Shown: in pieces, positions 12,040 through 17,767 of the stretch | Numbering within the stretch: the stretch's first letter is position 1 | Layout of the letters: the number at the start of each line of letters is the position of its first letter | Source: Halalkalicoccus jeotgali B3 | GTDB taxonomy: Archaea; Halobacteriota; Halobacteria; Halobacteriales; Halalkalicoccaceae | Direction of reading: 5' to 3' | NCBI RefSeq assembly: GCF_000196895.1 | Contig: NC_014297.1 | Coordinates: 2,680,468-2,744,467, forward strand | DNA length: 64,000 nt | Notes under the pieces: generated by a model | What the model was told of the DNA's origin: nothing | What the model saw: only the letters and a program-made list of their open reading frames with translations | Databases searched by the model: none | Position numbers and translations under genes: made by a program

Positions 12040-12936
12040 ATGCTCCCCGACCTGACACCGATAACCGACACCCTCGTCTGGATCGTCATGGGCGGGTTCG
12101 TCGCGGGGATCGCAGTCGACCGGCGCGACCGCCCGAGCGCGCGGTCGGTCACGGCCCTCGCATGGGCCGGGTTCGCGCTGTTCTGGCTGTTGATGGTCCC
12201 GTTTTTCGTCTTCGAGCACCGCAGCATCGTCGAGGCGGTCCTCGCGGCGGTCGCCGTCCCGGCCTGTGGCTACGTCGCCTACCGACTCCACGGGGGGCGG
12301 GATTCGCTGTTGATCCTCTCGCGGGCGGTCGGCGTCATGGGGCTGATCTACCTCCCCTTCGGCGCGATCCCGCTCTTTCACGACACGCTCATCGAGATCG
12401 TCGCGAACCAGACCCACGCCGGCCTCCAGTTGCTCGGATCGACGCCCGCCTTCGAGACCGACGAGGCGGGCCTGCGAAACACCTTCGCGTTCACCCTCGA
12501 TTCGGGCCGGGAGTACTCGACGCGGATCGTCTTCGCCTGTACGGGCATCGGCAGCATGGCCATCTTCGGCGGGCTGATCGCGGCGGTTCGAGCCCCCATC
12601 GAGCGCCGCCTCGCCGCGCTCGTGGTCGCGGTCTCGACCATCTGGGTGCTCAACATCGGACGCAACGTCTTCATCGCCTACTCGATCGGCCACCAGCTGT
12701 TCGACCAGGCGGCGCTCGCCGGTCCCGTGATGTGGCTGTTCGGGGTCGAGGACCCGATCCGGGTGTCGTTTTTCGTCGCCGACCGGATCCTCTCACAGGG
12801 GCTTGCGGTGGTCGCGTTGCTGGCTATCGCGTGGGTCGTCGTGAAGGTGCTTCCCGAACTGTACGTGATCGTCGAGGACCTGGTCTACCTCGTTACCGGC
12901 GAGGAGTACGACCTCGCTCGTGGGCGCGGGCGATGA
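12040..12936 (+). CDS. artA: Archaeosortase A
   Basis: Membrane protease/transpeptidase of the exosortase/archaeosortase family that processes PGF-CTERM proteins and couples their C terminus to a lipid. 298 aa with about eight hydrophobic helices. The catalytic cysteine is C167 in FACTGIGSMAIFGG, with conserved arginines at R207 (LNIGRNVFIAYS) and R248 (ADRIL), matching the Cys/Arg active site defined for Haloferax ArtA. It lies directly downstream of an S-layer gene with a PGF-CTERM tail, its expected substrate; another substrate candidate is at 59153-60712. It overlaps the next gene by four bases (ATGA). Confidence 0.93.
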   Translation: MLPDLTPITDTLVWIVMGGFVAGIAVDRRDRPSARSVTALAWAGFALFWLLMVPFFVFEHRSIVEAVLAAVAVPACGYVAYRLHGGRDSLLILSRAVGVMGLIYLPFGAIPLFHDTLIEIVANQTHAGLQLLGSTPAFETDEAGLRNTFAFTLDSGREYSTRIVFACTGIGSMAIFGGLIAAVRAPIERRLAALVVAVSTIWVLNIGRNVFIAYSIGHQLFDQAALAGPVMWLFGVEDPIRVSFFVADRILSQGLAVVALLAIAWVVVKVLPELYVIVEDLVYLVTGEEYDLARGRGR

Positions 12937-13895
12937 CCCGGGACCGGATCAGCCGACGCCGGGTGCTTGGGGCGCTCGGCGTCGGCGGCCTCGGGCTCGG
13001 GTCGGCGAAGGCGATCGACAACGTCGTCCTCGGCTACGGCGTGGGCGGCGGGACGAACCTCCGGGAACAGGACCTCGACCCGCTGCTCGCCGAGAACCGC
13101 CAGTTCGGGGGTCGGATCGAGGACGGCGGGACGACATACCACGTCGACGAAGACGGGCTGTGGATCGAACGGGACGACGACCGGCGGCGCCATCCCTTCG
13201 ACGAACGCCCCGGCGACCTCGCGGGGGACGCGCTGGCGCTGTTTCGCGACGCCGCAACACTGGTTGCCGAGACGACCTACGAGTACCACACCATGGCGGA
13301 GTTTTTCGAGCGGCTCGGCGAGGCGACCCCACGCCCGCTTGCGACGGCGGCCCTTCGCGGGAGCGTCTCGAACCCGGTTGCGCCCGCGGTCGTCGAACGG
13401 TTCTGTGGCGTCTCGCCGGCGAACGGTGCAAAGCTCCTCGAAGGGCTCAAGGAGGGCTTTCGCGAATACGGCCACTACGATATCCCCCGGTACGTCGCGG
13501 GCTCCGTCGAGGACAACATCGTCATCGGCAGGGTCGATCTGCGTGCGCCCTTCGAGGGACCGACCGACATCGAGACGCTCATCGAAGACGGCTCGACCGG
13601 TCTGTTCTGTTACGAACTGAGCGACCGGGCGATCGAGGCGATCCACTCGGTGGCCGCGACCGACCAGCGCCCGCCGCTTGCGGCTTTCTGGGTGCGCGAC
13701 CGGCGCCACAAGCACGTCTACAACGGACTGGCGAGCGTGGTGCGCGATGACGGGCGGCTACGCGTGCCCGTGACCTTCCTCGATTACACCCACTCGACGC
13801 TGTACGACGACCTGCGGGCGAAGTGGGTCGTGGGCGAGGGACTCGACGCCTACGGGCGCAGACACCGCGCCGACGAGATCTACTGGAGCGTGTGA
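12933..13895 (+). CDS. Tat-exported protein of unknown function, translationally coupled to artA
   Basis: 320 aa. The N terminus RDRISRRRVLGALGVGG is a twin-arginine signal (SRRRVLG) with a short hydrophobic stretch, so the folded protein should be exported. The rest has no membrane segment and is rich in charged residues; visible blocks are a mixed beta region (HVDEDGLWIERDDD), a helical middle, and DNIVIGRVDLRAPFEGPTDI. I recognise no catalytic motif. Its ATG overlaps the artA stop (ATGA), implying co-translation and a role connected with the cell surface, perhaps maturation or anchoring. That role is inference from position only. Confidence 0.75.
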   Translation: MTRDRISRRRVLGALGVGGLGLGSAKAIDNVVLGYGVGGGTNLREQDLDPLLAENRQFGGRIEDGGTTYHVDEDGLWIERDDDRRRHPFDERPGDLAGDALALFRDAATLVAETTYEYHTMAEFFERLGEATPRPLATAALRGSVSNPVAPAVVERFCGVSPANGAKLLEGLKEGFREYGHYDIPRYVAGSVEDNIVIGRVDLRAPFEGPTDIETLIEDGSTGLFCYELSDRAIEAIHSVAATDQRPPLAAFWVRDRRHKHVYNGLASVVRDDGRLRVPVTFLDYTHSTLYDDLRAKWVVGEGLDAYGRRHRADEIYWSV

Positions 13896-13919: not shown

Positions 13920-14621
13920 CTACAACTGCAGCCAACCGGTCGTCATCCCGCTATCGCGCAGGTACCAGCGCTGATAGAGGGTGTCCCCGCGCAGGCAGAG
14001 TTCGATCACCGCGTCGAACAGCGGTTCGAGCAGCGCGACCGTCCGGTTCGAGCGCTCGGTCGTGAGGTGGTAGTGGGCCATCCCGTCGACCGAGCGAACG
14101 CGATGGGTCAGCAGGTGTAAGAACCGAAAGAGCGATTCGGGGTCGTACTCCGAAACCAGGGGTGTAAGTGAGTCGAAACAGAGCCTGAGTTCCGCCGCCG
14201 AGAGCCCGCTGCTTGTCGCCTCGAACTCCGTGATGGCCTCCGAGATCGCGAGTCCGAGCGATCCGAGTCCCTCCTCGACGGACCGTTCGGGGACCGACTC
14301 GGGGAACGGAGACGACGAGTCCGAGGAGACGCTGCGGCTGGTCGCCTCGTATCGGACGACCGAACAGCGCGAGGGGTCCTCACAGCCGGCCGACAGACGG
14401 GTCGGGTCGGGCCCACAGGGGTCCGCACGGACGAACAGGCGGCGACGCGCCTGCGCGGAGGTCTCGCCGAGGAACTGTCGACAGGCCGCCTCGTGGGCGT
14501 CAGGCATCCGCGAACCGACGACGAGGAGGTTCGAACCGTGCTGTTTGAGCGCGTCGAGTTCCTGAACGAGCGCCGTCGTCTCCTCGTATGCCGATCCATC
14601 GGCGCCGTGCTCTCGTGGCAT
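13920..14621 (-). CDS. Haloarchaeal RecA-like (DUF7504-type) protein
   Basis: 233 aa. The segment GSNLLVVGSRMPDAHEAACR near the N terminus resembles haloarchaeal proteins derived from the RecA/KaiC ATPase fold in which the Walker A lysine is lost; no GKT/GKS P-loop is present here, so ATP binding is doubtful. The C-terminal half (LRLCFDSLTPLVSEYDPESL, LTHRVRSVDGMAHYHL) matches the same group. Such genes usually neighbour sensory or regulatory genes. It is divergently oriented to the CHAT gene at 14855 (233 bp shared upstream region) and converges on the Tat gene. The DUF label is from memory; function unknown. Confidence 0.55.
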   Translation of the reverse strand: MPREHGADGSAYEETTALVQELDALKQHGSNLLVVGSRMPDAHEAACRQFLGETSAQARRRLFVRADPCGPDPTRLSAGCEDPSRCSVVRYEATSRSVSSDSSSPFPESVPERSVEEGLGSLGLAISEAITEFEATSSGLSAAELRLCFDSLTPLVSEYDPESLFRFLHLLTHRVRSVDGMAHYHLTTERSNRTVALLEPLFDAVIELCLRGDTLYQRWYLRDSGMTTGWLQL

Positions 14622-14854
14622 CCTCTCGGCGTAGTTTCAATGGATTAAAATATAAACGTTGCGCCTTTTCCTGCATCCGGCGAGCGGAACTGTCGTGATC
14701 ACCGGACTCGGGCGCTCAAAGCGGGCGTTCGACTGGAAGCGGTTCGCGTCGGCCCGAGGGTTCGTCCGGGTAGCGAGAACCGGGCGGAGGGGAGGATGTC
14801 GGAAAACGGTCGATAGACTTTTGTTCGATATCGCTGATATTACACCGTGACGCG

Positions 14855-16957
14855 ATGAGCCGATCGGCTTCGAGTGAACAGTCAGCGGCGATCCGCTTCG
14901 AGTACGACGACGGAACGCTCGGCGTCGTCGATACGGTCGAGCGACGGCGGTATTCCCTCTCGCTGGCAGGGTCGAACCGACCGACGCGGACCGATGGGGC
15001 GACGTTCCGATTCCCCGTTGACAGCGCCGTCACCGTCGATACGGAGGCGATCGTGCTCCCGACGGGGATCACGGTCTACGTCCGCGACGTCGAGGGTCGG
15101 ATGCTGGCGGAGACCCGCCACACCGCCCAGCAGTCGTTCCCGGAGGGTAGTTACAGCCTCGAGTTGTGCGCGCCGATGAAGATCTACGTTCGGGTCGAGG
15201 GTCCGTTCGAGATCGGTTCGGACGCCGAGCGAACGACGATCAGCCTCCCGGAGCGCACGACGGTGTCGATCGGCGCGCGATCGAAACACGACCGACCGGC
15301 GGCGACGGTCACGACGACGGACGACCCCGAGGACGTCATGGCGGCGATCTCGACGTTCGGGTCGGCGCTGAAGACGACCAGTCCCGAGCGGTCGTATCCG
15401 ACCCTCCGGGGCCACCCTCCGACGCTCGAACGCGGATCGACGCTCTCGATCCCGGACGGCCTCACCCCACCGGAAACGGGGATCACGATCGAGGTACCGG
15501 CGACGCTGCGCCACGCGTACGTGGTCGCCCCGCTGGCGTACTACCTCGGTGCGACCGTCGAACCCGGCGACCGCCCGCTGATCCGCACCGACTCGGGGTT
15601 CGTCCACCCGATGGGAACCGACGGGACGTTCGAATCGGCCGTCGAACGGACGTTGAAGCAGTCGTTCTTGCTCGATTGTGTGACGCGAACCGAGGGGCTG
15701 TACCCGATCGACCTCCACGAGCGTCGGGCGATCGAGCCCCACGTCGATCTCGATTTCGCGACGCTGTACGACCGGCCCATCGGCGATCGGCTGGAGGCGT
15801 ATCTGTCAGTCCCGTACCCGACGATCGAACCACATCTCCCGGAGTGGAAACTCACCTCCCACGTCGCGCCGTTTCCCGCAAGCATCGAGATGCTGCCGTT
15901 TCTGGTCGACGACCTCGCGGTGATCCGGACGCCCGACGTCCGCCGACCCGCACCGACCCGGTCGGAGACGACCGCGATCGAGGGTTTTCTCCGGAATTCG
16001 ACGCCACAGAACACCCGGAAAGCGACCGCCGCGGCGAGCGCCGCGCCGGAGTCGTACGTCGAACCGAGACGAACCGAATCGCTCGAACACGCCTGGGTCG
16101 GCGACGAGACGCCGATGGGTGCGAGCAAGGCGACGCCACAGGCCTACCGCAACCGTCTCGCACGCGAGCAGTCGGGCGGCGATATCTCGATCGCCGTCGT
16201 CTGTAACGACCCGCAGATGGACGAGGAGCGCGACCTCGTCGACGACGTTTACGGATCGCGCGAGGAACTGCCCTTCGAGGTGGCCATCCACAGGGACCTC
16301 ACCCGCGAGGAGCTCTCTACCGTCCTCGAAACCGACGTCGACTTCCTCCACTACGTCGGCCACATCGAACCGGACGGCTTCGAGTGTTCGGACGGGCGAC
16401 TCGACGCGAGAAGCCTCGAAACCGTCGGGGTCGACGCGTTCTTGCTGAACGGCTGTCGGTCCTACGATCAGGGAATGGCCCTGATCGACGGCGGTGCTAT
16501 CGGCGGGATCGTCACACTGACCGACGTGATCAACACCGGCGCGGTCACGATCGGGTCGGCGCTGGCGCGCCTGCTTAACAACGGCTTTCCGCTTCGTGCC
16601 GCCCTCGAAGTCGCCAAGGACGAGGACGTCGCCGGCGAGCAGTACATTGTCGTCGGGGACGGCGGGATGTCGGTGACACAGGCGGAGGGCGGTGTCGCCC
16701 TCCTGTGTACGGTTGAGAAGAGCGGAGACGGGTACGACGTGAAGCTGAAGACATACCCGACGAACGTGGAAGGAATGGGTAGTATCGTGTATCCGACGAT
16801 CGGCCAAAACAGGGAACACTACATCAACTCCGGCAGCCTGCGGGAGTTCGAGTGCACTACGGACGAACTACAGGATTTCTTTGTGGATTCACGATTGCCG
16901 ATCCGAGTTGGCGGCGATCTTTACTGGAGCGATCAGGTTTCGATCGAGGACTTCTAA
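14855..16957 (+). CDS. CHAT-domain (caspase-like) protein
   Basis: 700 aa cytosolic protein. The C-terminal part (about 443-600) is a CHAT domain: DFLHYVGHIEPDGF contains the catalytic-type His (H503) and VDAFLLNGCRSYDQG the Cys (C534), followed by GGAIGGIVTLTDV. CHAT proteins are clan CD cysteine proteases related to caspases and separase; several act in bacterial immunity (for example the type III-E CRISPR protease). The N-terminal about 360 residues are beta-rich and unlike any family I recognise, perhaps a sensor; no TPR repeats are visible, unlike classic CHAT proteins. Its stop abuts the stop of a 44-aa hydrophobic gene on the other strand. Both catalytic residues are present, so activity is plausible. 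Confidence 0.75.
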   Translation: MSRSASSEQSAAIRFEYDDGTLGVVDTVERRRYSLSLAGSNRPTRTDGATFRFPVDSAVTVDTEAIVLPTGITVYVRDVEGRMLAETRHTAQQSFPEGSYSLELCAPMKIYVRVEGPFEIGSDAERTTISLPERTTVSIGARSKHDRPAATVTTTDDPEDVMAAISTFGSALKTTSPERSYPTLRGHPPTLERGSTLSIPDGLTPPETGITIEVPATLRHAYVVAPLAYYLGATVEPGDRPLIRTDSGFVHPMGTDGTFESAVERTLKQSFLLDCVTRTEGLYPIDLHERRAIEPHVDLDFATLYDRPIGDRLEAYLSVPYPTIEPHLPEWKLTSHVAPFPASIEMLPFLVDDLAVIRTPDVRRPAPTRSETTAIEGFLRNSTPQNTRKATAAASAAPESYVEPRRTESLEHAWVGDETPMGASKATPQAYRNRLAREQSGGDISIAVVCNDPQMDEERDLVDDVYGSREELPFEVAIHRDLTREELSTVLETDVDFLHYVGHIEPDGFECSDGRLDARSLETVGVDAFLLNGCRSYDQGMALIDGGAIGGIVTLTDVINTGAVTIGSALARLLNNGFPLRAALEVAKDEDVAGEQYIVVGDGGMSVTQAEGGVALLCTVEKSGDGYDVKLKTYPTNVEGMGSIVYPTIGQNREHYINSGSLREFECTTDELQDFFVDSRLPIRVGGDLYWSDQVSIEDF

Positions 16958-17092
16958 TCAGGGCCCTGCGGTAACGTAGGCCCCGCCCGCTGCCGCGTTC
17001 CCGGCCTGCGTCAGCAACAGCAGGAGGGTAAACAGGACACCGGTCATTCGTGGGTGGTTCGCCAGGTACGTTTTGAGGTTGTCTTCCGACAT
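16958..17092 (-). CDS. 44-aa single-helix membrane peptide next to the CHAT gene
   Basis: The frame from ATG 17092 encodes a peptide starting MSEDNLKTYLANHPRM, followed by a hydrophobic run TGVLFTLLLLLTQAG and a small-residue tail NAAAGGAYVTAGP. This is one membrane helix or an uncleaved or cleavable signal peptide (AGNAAAGG). Very similar short hydrophobic proteins occur across haloarchaea (possibly the group catalogued as DUF7503; from memory). Its stop codon directly abuts the stop of the CHAT gene, so the two transcripts converge with no spacer. It could be a membrane effector, a signal peptide-like regulator or a CHAT substrate; none is shown. Confidence 0.6.
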   Translation of the reverse strand: MSEDNLKTYLANHPRMTGVLFTLLLLLTQAGNAAAGGAYVTAGP

Positions 17093-17693
17093 CGCAACAG
17101 ATCCATGGTCTGCAACTGATATGAATTTATTCGAATATTGAAGACACTAAATATAGTCATTTAACTTAAAACAAATAAGTAACAAAAATGTTGCTATTTT
17201 AATAAGTAGCCGAATCGATGGGGGGGAGAGCCGTCTCCACCAGCATGTTGAACATAAAGGATGAAATGTCTGTCGGTATTATTTACATATTTTACTTATG
17301 TGTTCTTTGAAATCGTATTAGATCTATCAATAGATACTACCGATAGTTCTCACCGATTAAGTAATGTCAGTTAATATACCAACATCAACGAAGGAAAGCG
17401 GTCGTTTCGGCGGTCGAATACGAGGACCCCGTCGGGCAACTCAAGGAGCGTGCGAGTGCGGTCGGAGTACGACCGTTCGGAAACCGTCTCGGTGAGTTGG
17501 GCGGGTCGTCGCCGACCGGGGACGACGGAGCCGATCGTAAGTCCGTGTTACGGATTCGAGTAGGGTTCGCGATAGACGTCTGTCGCCACTCCCATTGAGG
17601 AGTTTTTACTCGCTTTCGCTCGCAGGGACGAGGACGGTTCGGTCTTCACTCGATCGGGTATGGCTCTCAGATCCGAGTCGCGTAAAACGGGGA
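17093..17693. other. AT-rich, gene-poor intergenic region
   Basis: About 600 bp between the 44-aa gene and tRNA-Phe. The left half (17100-17390) is much richer in A/T than the rest of the window and holds only a doubtful 37-codon frame at 17261. The right half (about 17397-17595) returns to high GC and reads as a broken frame (VEYEDPVGQLKERASAVGVR) with no start, probably a decayed gene end. The composition break suggests an old insertion or deletion site beside the tRNA. Confidence 0.4.
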
Positions 17694-17767
17694 TGCCGCC
17701 TCCCGGATTTGAACCGGGGACAGCTCGATCTTCAGTCGAGTGCTCTCCCAGTCTGAGCTAAGGCGGC
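17694..17767 (-). tRNA. tRNA-Phe (GAA)
   Basis: Read on the minus strand: acceptor GCCGCCT pairs with AGGCGGC, discriminator A, anticodon stem CTCGA/TCGAG with loop CTGAAGA giving anticodon GAA, and T arm CCCGG TTCAAAT CCGGG. No intron, CCA not encoded. It marks the left side of the four-gene operon region. Confidence 0.95.

Follow-up and report, generated by a model that had tools for sequence, protein, structure and literature searches.

What might a caspase-like protein and a peptide of 44 amino acids (aa) do together when their genes run towards each other and meet stop codon to stop codon? This question is raised by a locus of the haloarchaeon Halalkalicoccus jeotgali B3, analysed here within a window of 64,000 nucleotides (the whole stretch of DNA under study, positions 2,680,468 to 2,744,467 of NC_014297.1; coordinates below are those of the window), in which a CHAT protein gene and a gene of the DUF7503 peptide family converge with a spacer of exactly 0, as had been noted in an original prediction made from the letters of this DNA. 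Because the peptide does not occur in Haloarchaea without a convergent CHAT gene and the two proteins have hypervariable, matched ends encoded tail to tail, we lean towards the reading that they form a polymorphic, matched peptide-protease recognition pair, in which the C-terminal domain of the CHAT protein would read the tail of the peptide. This reading draws on the following features:

14855 to 16957, plus strand: CHAT (caspase-like) protein of 700 aa (open reading frame (ORF), homology and structure model), with an N-terminal beta and alpha/beta part at residues 1-330, a caspase fold at about 331-612 and a C-terminal domain at 612-700
16688 to 16957, plus strand: hypervariable C-terminal domain of the CHAT protein, residues 612-700 plus stop, the proposed reader of the peptide tail (from the variability of relatives; boundary approximate)
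16958 to 17092, minus strand: micropeptide of 44 aa, Pfam DUF7503 (PF24335) (ORF and Pfam)
16988 to 17092, minus strand: conserved leader of the peptide, residues 1-35 (peptide alignment)
16958 to 16987, minus strand: variable tail of the peptide, residues 36-44, GGAYVTAGP plus stop, ending in the conserved Gly-Pro
16688 to 16987, no strand: block of about 300 bp with both variable 3' ends side by side, a proposed specificity cassette (positioned by homology with relatives)

The association of the two genes was followed through 292 genomes of the class, one genome per species. DUF7503 is present in 250 of them (65 of 77 genera; Haloferax volcanii has a match), and 271 (68 of 77 genera) have a relative of one or other CHAT paralogue. 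Peptide and CHAT occur together in 250 genomes, CHAT alone in 21 and neither in 21 (one of these CHAT-less genomes being assigned by elimination between both lists), and the peptide alone in none; the pattern that would have counted against the original prediction, a peptide gene often present without CHAT, was thus not seen in any of the 250 peptide-bearing genomes. The best-scoring peptide loci have an adjoining convergent CHAT gene in 30 of 30 cases, and in the 13 genomes with multiple copies, 48 of 49 peptide copies have one within 600 nt, on the basis of which the peptide was rejected as a free-standing gene; the convergent CHAT gene of the 49th copy lies about 820 nt off. Among 100 loci, 19 were selected via their peptide, and the 19 CHAT genes at these loci all have a convergent peptide, as do 73 of the 81 CHAT genes at the 80 loci found through CHAT (L054-L133, the best 80 of 401 relatives, leaning to the window's own subfamily). 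In the resulting 92 pairs, the gap between the two genes ranges from -17 to 228 nt (exactly 0 in 27 and -4 in 11). The eight CHAT genes without a called peptide include three with a masked or diverged peptide (L059, L117 and L118) and one cut by the contig end (L105); no peptide was found beside CHAT in L071, L082, L087 and L094. The Halomarina peptides L117:7947-8132 and L118:8061-8465 (minus strand), which overlap CHAT by the same -4, are diverged in the middle and apparently less hydrophobic, with HPK and the final Gly-Pro retained.

CHAT genes are also found by themselves. Six genomes of one genus, identified as Haloplanus through the identity of L138 with the named L094, retain CHAT without the peptide, and no peptide was found beside the second CHAT paralogue of the window's genome (L034:4242-6245, minus strand), downstream of which lie a TbsP-type regulator and a YcaO-domain gene. 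In a search of the phylum, four of 120 genomes, all of one other family, showed the same N-terminal plus CHAT architecture, and neither the peptide nor DUF7504 (the family of a third protein in the window, described below) was found in the 5-7 kb fetched at these loci, so that the peptide looks like a haloarchaeal addition. Relatives were present on 25 plasmid records, every one typed as non-mobilizable.

The original prediction missed that the two proteins have matched hypervariable ends, which point to allele-specific recognition. Judging from DNA comparisons, the last approximately 90 residues of CHAT and the peptide tail form one hypervariable block of about 300 bp. In seven of 13 close pairs picked by hand, DNA identity is mostly about 0.8-1.0 through the CHAT gene, falls within its last approximately 300 nt and the tail of the peptide (reaching 0.3-0.7 in L128/L131 and the Haloarcula-type pairs and 0.63-0.77 in two Haloferax pairs), and is back at about 0.9-1.0 in the peptide leader. 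Five close pairs have no dip in CHAT, and the tails are identical in all five; L097/L121 have identical tails yet a slight dip. Among 12 Haloarcula-type genomes, 4-fold degenerate sites have an identity of 0.67-0.78 between CHAT residues 101 and 600, but of 0.28-0.45 starting at residue 616; the values are 0.35 for the codons of the Gly-Pro and 0.71-0.85 for the leader. Because of the low values from residue 616 on, the C-terminal types look much older than the surrounding genes, and they seem to have moved between species. For example, the CHAT protein of L018 differs from that of L099 by 2% in the core and 55% in the C-terminus, and from that of L104 by 5% in the core, 14% in the C-terminus and one residue in the tail.

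Such a pattern would also suit a reading of linkage only, which we regard as rather unlikely: the C-terminus would have diversified for some other reason (escape from a viral inhibitor, or a variable target), and the tail would merely lie in the same recombining tract. The contiguity of the two ends is in line with it, as are the silent sites of the CHAT C-terminus, which are near saturation as for old exchanged alleles. A control is provided by a second, peptide-less CHAT carried by 15 Haloarcula-type genomes. Over their 105 pairs, the median difference of the peptide-linked CHAT is 0.059 in the core and 0.578 in the C-terminus, versus 0.067 and 0.081 in the peptide-less paralogue, and the ratio of C-terminus to core is higher in the linked copy for 105 of 105 pairs. 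In the paralogue-control comparison of six genomes of the window's genus, the linked CHAT differs by 0.232 in the core and 0.615 in the C-terminus and the paralogue by 0.198 and 0.308, with the linked ratio higher in 15 of 15 pairs. That the same genomes hold strong hypervariability in the linked copy and not in the paralogue is poorly explained by linkage. In other linked sets (g7, Haloferax and the window's own genus), the ratio of medians is 2.5-3.0; a search for a control paralogue in g7 returned mostly peptide-linked copies themselves as best matches. Going by these comparisons, strong hypervariability accompanies the peptide and a mild excess exists without it. The possibility that C-terminal hypervariability is a trait of all CHAT relatives alike was rejected by the paralogue controls.

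Whether the two variable ends are matched was examined by correlating their differences. In the 15 Haloarcula-type genomes, the tail follows the C-terminus with r 0.65 (Mantel test, 0/10,000) and the core with r 0.54 (217/10,000), and the partial correlation with the C-terminus given the core is 0.60. The test was done on all 15 genomes and again on 14; when the outlier genome L221 is left out, the values are 0.58 for the C-terminus (0/10,000), 0.05 for the core and 0.58 for the partial correlation. Six pairs with the same tail differ by 0.22 at the C-terminus, versus 0.54 for other pairs in a 12-genome set or 0.56 in all 15 genomes. In the 12-genome set, from which L221, L230 and L234 were omitted by hand (core divergence 0.32 and 0.23 in two of them, and 0.07 in L230), the cores of same-tail and other pairs are alike (0.052 vs 0.049, p 0.67). 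When C-termini are grouped into classes, these do not follow the core clusters, and the class predicts residues of the tail: in the 15 genomes, four positions of the tail show an association with the C-terminal class (p<=0.007) and none with the core cluster (p>=0.089). For g7 (30 genomes), the association with the C-terminal class holds at three tail positions (p<=0.0003), two of which also track the core cluster (p<=0.0015), and the partial correlation of tail and C-terminus given the core is 0.40. Within the Haloarcula-type classes, the tails show 3 residue differences in 9 pairs while the C-termini are on average 0.23 apart, and such near-constancy of the tails is not what linkage alone would lead one to expect.

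The permutation tests on genome sets ignore phylogeny, and the test over the whole class used edge-disjoint pairs instead, drawing on 125 of 154 peptide-CHAT pairs (29 were lost to a wrong ORF pick) and only on peptides that end in Gly-Pro. The 49 edge-disjoint pairs give a partial rank correlation of 0.65 (p 0.0 to four decimals), and the tail has no significant correlation with any block of CHAT residues 230-589. In the tail-matching set of six genomes from the window's genus, where the median difference is 0.21 in the core and 0.62 in the C-terminus, L024 is nearest to the window at the C-terminus (0.40) and has a tail one residue off, the other four tails being three to five residues off.

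Several results weigh against recognition of the tail by the CHAT C-terminus. In the edge-disjoint pairs, the peptide leader tracks the C-terminus too (partial correlation 0.51). The Mantel test for tail and C-terminus in the six genomes of the window's genus gives p 0.076, and once cores are 0.4-0.5 apart, there is hardly any relation between the similarity of the tails and that of the C-termini. The tail in Haloferax tracks the core no less closely than it does the C-terminus (r 0.87 and 0.75, partial 0.30), which is also what linkage would predict. The silent sites of the tail codons are unsaturated, with a 4-fold-site identity of 0.78 based on only 73 comparisons. Peptide-less CHATs have a smaller excess of their own, again in keeping with linkage: the C-terminus of the peptide-less paralogue in the window's genus is still 1.5 times as different as its core, and in Haloplanus, core and C-terminus differ by 0.112 and 0.200 (ratio 1.8, range 1.3-4.5, 21 pairs). 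None of the 16 pairs of g7 and g23 with a core difference below 5% exceeds 0.3 at the C-terminus, despite which DNA identity along L109/L113 dips clearly. Moreover, CHAT persists with no peptide beside it in Haloplanus, at some Halococcus loci, as the paralogue and in the relatives of another family. Since the variable ends are adjacent, both could travel in a single recombination tract even if the proteins never touch. Finally, the tail would lie outside the cell and CHAT inside, unless the tail is re-imported, unprocessed or inverted. Against these points, the paralogue control and the near-constant tails within classes argue for a function of the matching, short of proving contact.

The peptide itself is clearly a member of its family (DUF7503, E 4e-22, 77.9 bits, cut-off 27), and its leader has the consensus YLxx[HN]P[RK]M..G.LFT..LLL[ST]QAG.[AV]xA. 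Residue counts refer to 92 aligned peptides, and a larger set comprises 154 distinct peptides. All 92 share Pro14, Phe21 and Gly31, position 15 holds Arg or Lys in 92 of 92, residue 33 is A, V, G, T or S and residue 35 A or G in all 92, and residue 34 accepts M, L, I, Q and V. Because Gly at -5 and small residues at -3 and -1 (each rule holding in 92 of 92) accompany a short hydrophobic core, the leader probably resembles a Sec signal peptide, in which residue 35 would be followed by a site like that of signal peptidase I. The tail beyond this site has nine residues in 68 of 92 peptides, charged residues make up 1.6% of its residues (807 in total), and the peptide ends in Gly-Pro in 84 of 92 (134 of the 154 distinct peptides). 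In 141 close pairs, the ratio of non-synonymous to synonymous differences (pN/pS) is 0.71 in the N-region, 0.13 in the leader core, 0.50 in the tail and 0.01 in the final Gly-Pro, which identifies the peptide as a translated and selected protein; a chance ORF or an RNA feature was rejected, since silent sites vary while residues stay. The retention of the final Gly-Pro as protein, while its silent sites vary, is also at odds with a tail that is merely linked.

The peptide gene appears to have a promoter of its own, as suggested by an AT-rich upstream element kept within the window's genus and by the upstream regions of 153 pooled peptides, which are AT-rich with a GC-richer stretch beside the start:

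17119 to 17135, minus strand: AT-rich, TATA-like element TTCGAATAAATTCATAT upstream of the peptide gene (genus conservation)

The leader is more conserved than would be expected for a signal peptide, its first 12 residues being identical across the 12 Haloarcula-type genomes. This feature, and the presence of separase among the best structural matches of CHAT (see below), would fit a peptide that anchors CHAT to the membrane, inhibits it or acts as its pseudosubstrate, similar to securin, and that binds it through the conserved YLxx[HN]P[RK]M leader. Such a role would leave unexplained the hypervariable, matched tail and C-terminus as well as the signal-peptidase-like site, and is in our view very improbable.

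With regard to the CHAT protein, His503 and Cys534, named in the original prediction as catalytic-type residues of a 700-aa CHAT protein, are where they had been placed, and all 101 of the 101 CHAT proteins aligned have them (the window plus 100; one additional relative was skipped owing to an unknown residue). By analogy with the family, they are presumably the catalytic pair. In L202, a homologue outside Haloarchaea, Arg and Asp seem to replace this pair in a profile alignment, and it might be a pseudo-protease. Sequence searches recognise the family poorly: the window protein has no match in Pfam, NCBIfam or PADLOC, seven among 17 family members reach Pfam CHAT (PF12770) at an E of 1 or less (the lowest being 4e-4), and a family profile had a sole match at E 0.89 among PDB sequences. 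The AlphaFold model (predicted local distance difference test, pLDDT, 79) has Foldseek matches to SAVED-CHAT (8tl0, E 5e-6), separase and gingipain. For residues approximately 331-612, VIA-align gave Z 18.8 with RgpB (246 residues aligned, root-mean-square deviation 3.1) and Z 13.9 with the Craspase TPR-CHAT protein. On the basis of the model, the catalytic part is predicted to have a caspase-like fold.

The N-terminal 365 residues were modelled with pLDDT 91 as beta up to residue 142 and alpha/beta beyond. The absence of TPR repeats before CHAT, already claimed in the original prediction, was borne out, as there is no TPR family in Pfam and the N-terminal model is of another kind. The same holds for its remark that the first approximately 360 residues match nothing known: the fold search gave no convincing match for the N-terminal 365 residues (the portion after residue 146 being barely covered), and the best hit for residues 11-143, a beta-rich domain of a glycosyl hydrolase with Z 8.6, is too weak for naming a family.

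These structural relatives bring up the immune function favoured by the original prediction, in which a triggered CHAT protease would cleave or release the membrane peptide, which then harms the membrane. Such action is known for type III-E CRISPR and gasdermins, according to the available parts of two papers (PMC10952713, PMC12881547); the fold matches both SAVED-CHAT and the Craspase TPR-CHAT, and the Arg or Lys before the membrane segment in 92 of 92 peptides is a possible cleavage residue. In the 154 distinct peptides, this residue is replaced by Q or H in four (a count taken by reading 11 odd rows), and a strict Arg/Lys cleavage site was therefore rejected. The distribution also speaks against an immune role, the peptide being found in 250 of 292 genomes rather than sporadically. 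All three proteins match 0 families of PADLOC-DB 2.0.0 at E up to 10, and no CHAT relative was found in the phage records and viral contigs searched, where the peptide itself was not a query. In addition, the genes are convergent and do not form an operon, and the matched polymorphic ends would be unexplained. An immune module is thus considered improbable, and from the proposed protease-effector module, the gene association, the caspase-like CHAT fold and the conserved catalytic pair stand while the immune role is not supported.

Under the recognition reading that we prefer, the peptide would be exported via its signal-peptide-like leader, and its tail (GGAYVTAGP in the window) would be a ligand or a handled end recognised by the CHAT C-terminal domain, such that no tail but the cognate one would control how active the conserved protease core is. 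CHAT may dock at, or cleave, the leader motif YLxxHP[RK]M, and DUF7504, where present, may regulate CHAT. The genes are proposed to stay convergent because both variable regions are C-terminal and, when placed tail to tail, can be exchanged together by recombination as a single segment. The pair would most likely serve to recognise self or kin, or to sense cell density, many types being present in the population. A tentative and somewhat doubtful extension is a haloarchaea-wide self/non-self system, in which an exported nonapeptide ending in Gly-Pro would be recognised by a CHAT C-terminus specific for its own type, either as a pheromone or as an incompatibility check after cell fusion, with the protease as the executioner.

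Matched polymorphic parts of ligand and receptor, encoded in one contiguous hypervariable stretch with conserved flanks, are characteristic of the agr and comQXPA systems. Unlike these, the pair described here has no dedicated processing enzyme or histidine kinase, and its variable parts meet tail to tail. Another parallel is Rgg/SHP of streptococci, in which, in the available text of one report (PMC3679016), a tiny hydrophobic precursor gene lies beside its partner, convergent in group III, with several copies per genome. The haloarchaeal pair likewise has a hydrophobic precursor that is short and varies over a few residues at its C-terminal end, convergent genes and several copies per genome; unlike Rgg/SHP, its partner has a CHAT fold and no helix-turn-helix match, its tails end in Gly-Pro, and it belongs to archaea. 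It is proposed, by analogy, that the pair may work like Rgg/SHP or agr/comQXPA without being a member of any of them.

The CHAT caspase fold is common to the window protein, SAVED-CHAT and the Craspase TPR-CHAT protein (Csx29), from which the former differs in having no TPR, an N-terminal part without a clear match, a 44-aa partner and a hypervariable C-terminal domain. Borvo, described as a CHAT-domain defence gene in the accessible text of PMC10952713, shares the CHAT domain by description, and the window CHAT has no PADLOC match at E up to 10. In protease-gasdermin pairs, a caspase-like protease gene adjoins the gene of a membrane-active partner, as outlined in part of PMC12881547; here, the partner is instead a 44-aa DUF7503 peptide, the genes converge, and the ends are matched and polymorphic. 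DUF7503 and DUF7504, the Pfam families of the peptide and the RecA-like protein, carry no described function. No mention of either was found in the open-access literature searched, and no description of CHAT in haloarchaea or of a peptide-protease recognition system was found in that literature, which was partly available as titles and abstracts.

Should the match between the two ends have a function, a polymorphic recognition system of peptide and protease would be present in most Haloarchaea. It has been reported that haloarchaeal mating by fusion is more efficient within species and that its molecular mechanisms remain unknown (PMC5496957, available in part). The pair would, if the reading is true, offer a concrete molecular candidate for the discrimination of kin and strangers in haloarchaea, and a novel use of a caspase-like protease. 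The tail-to-tail order also suggests a general rule, by which convergent genes allow two C-terminal specificity regions to be exchanged as one cassette.

A third gene lies upstream of CHAT in the window:

13920 to 14621, minus strand: P-loop-less RecA/KaiC-like protein of 233 aa, DUF7504 (PF24336)

It is divergent from CHAT, with 233 nt between them, and its description in the original prediction as a RecA-like gene without a P-loop proved correct: the protein scores DUF7504 with E 4e-59 and 200.5 bits (cut-off 27), has a weak similarity to KaiC (E 0.06), and the P-loop motif G-x4-GK[ST] is absent in 43 of 43 DUF7504 proteins. Because DUF7504 is upstream on the same strand for only 43 of 100 CHAT genes, it is an optional partner of CHAT. 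Among the neighbour clusters of the 100 loci, it is the most shared (38 of 100), every other cluster being found at no more than 23 loci.

The surroundings of the trio contain several other genes. An artA (archaeosortase A) gene lies nearby at 12040-12936 on the plus strand (TIGR04125, E 9e-106), and likewise at locus L037, with no evident link to the peptide. The end of artA is overlapped by an ORF at 12933-13895 on the plus strand, which begins with MTRDRISRRRVLGALGVGG, a start that is Tat-like by eye, and has no Pfam match. A tRNA-Phe gene (anticodon gaa) is found at 17694-17767 on the minus strand, about 600 bp upstream of the peptide gene.

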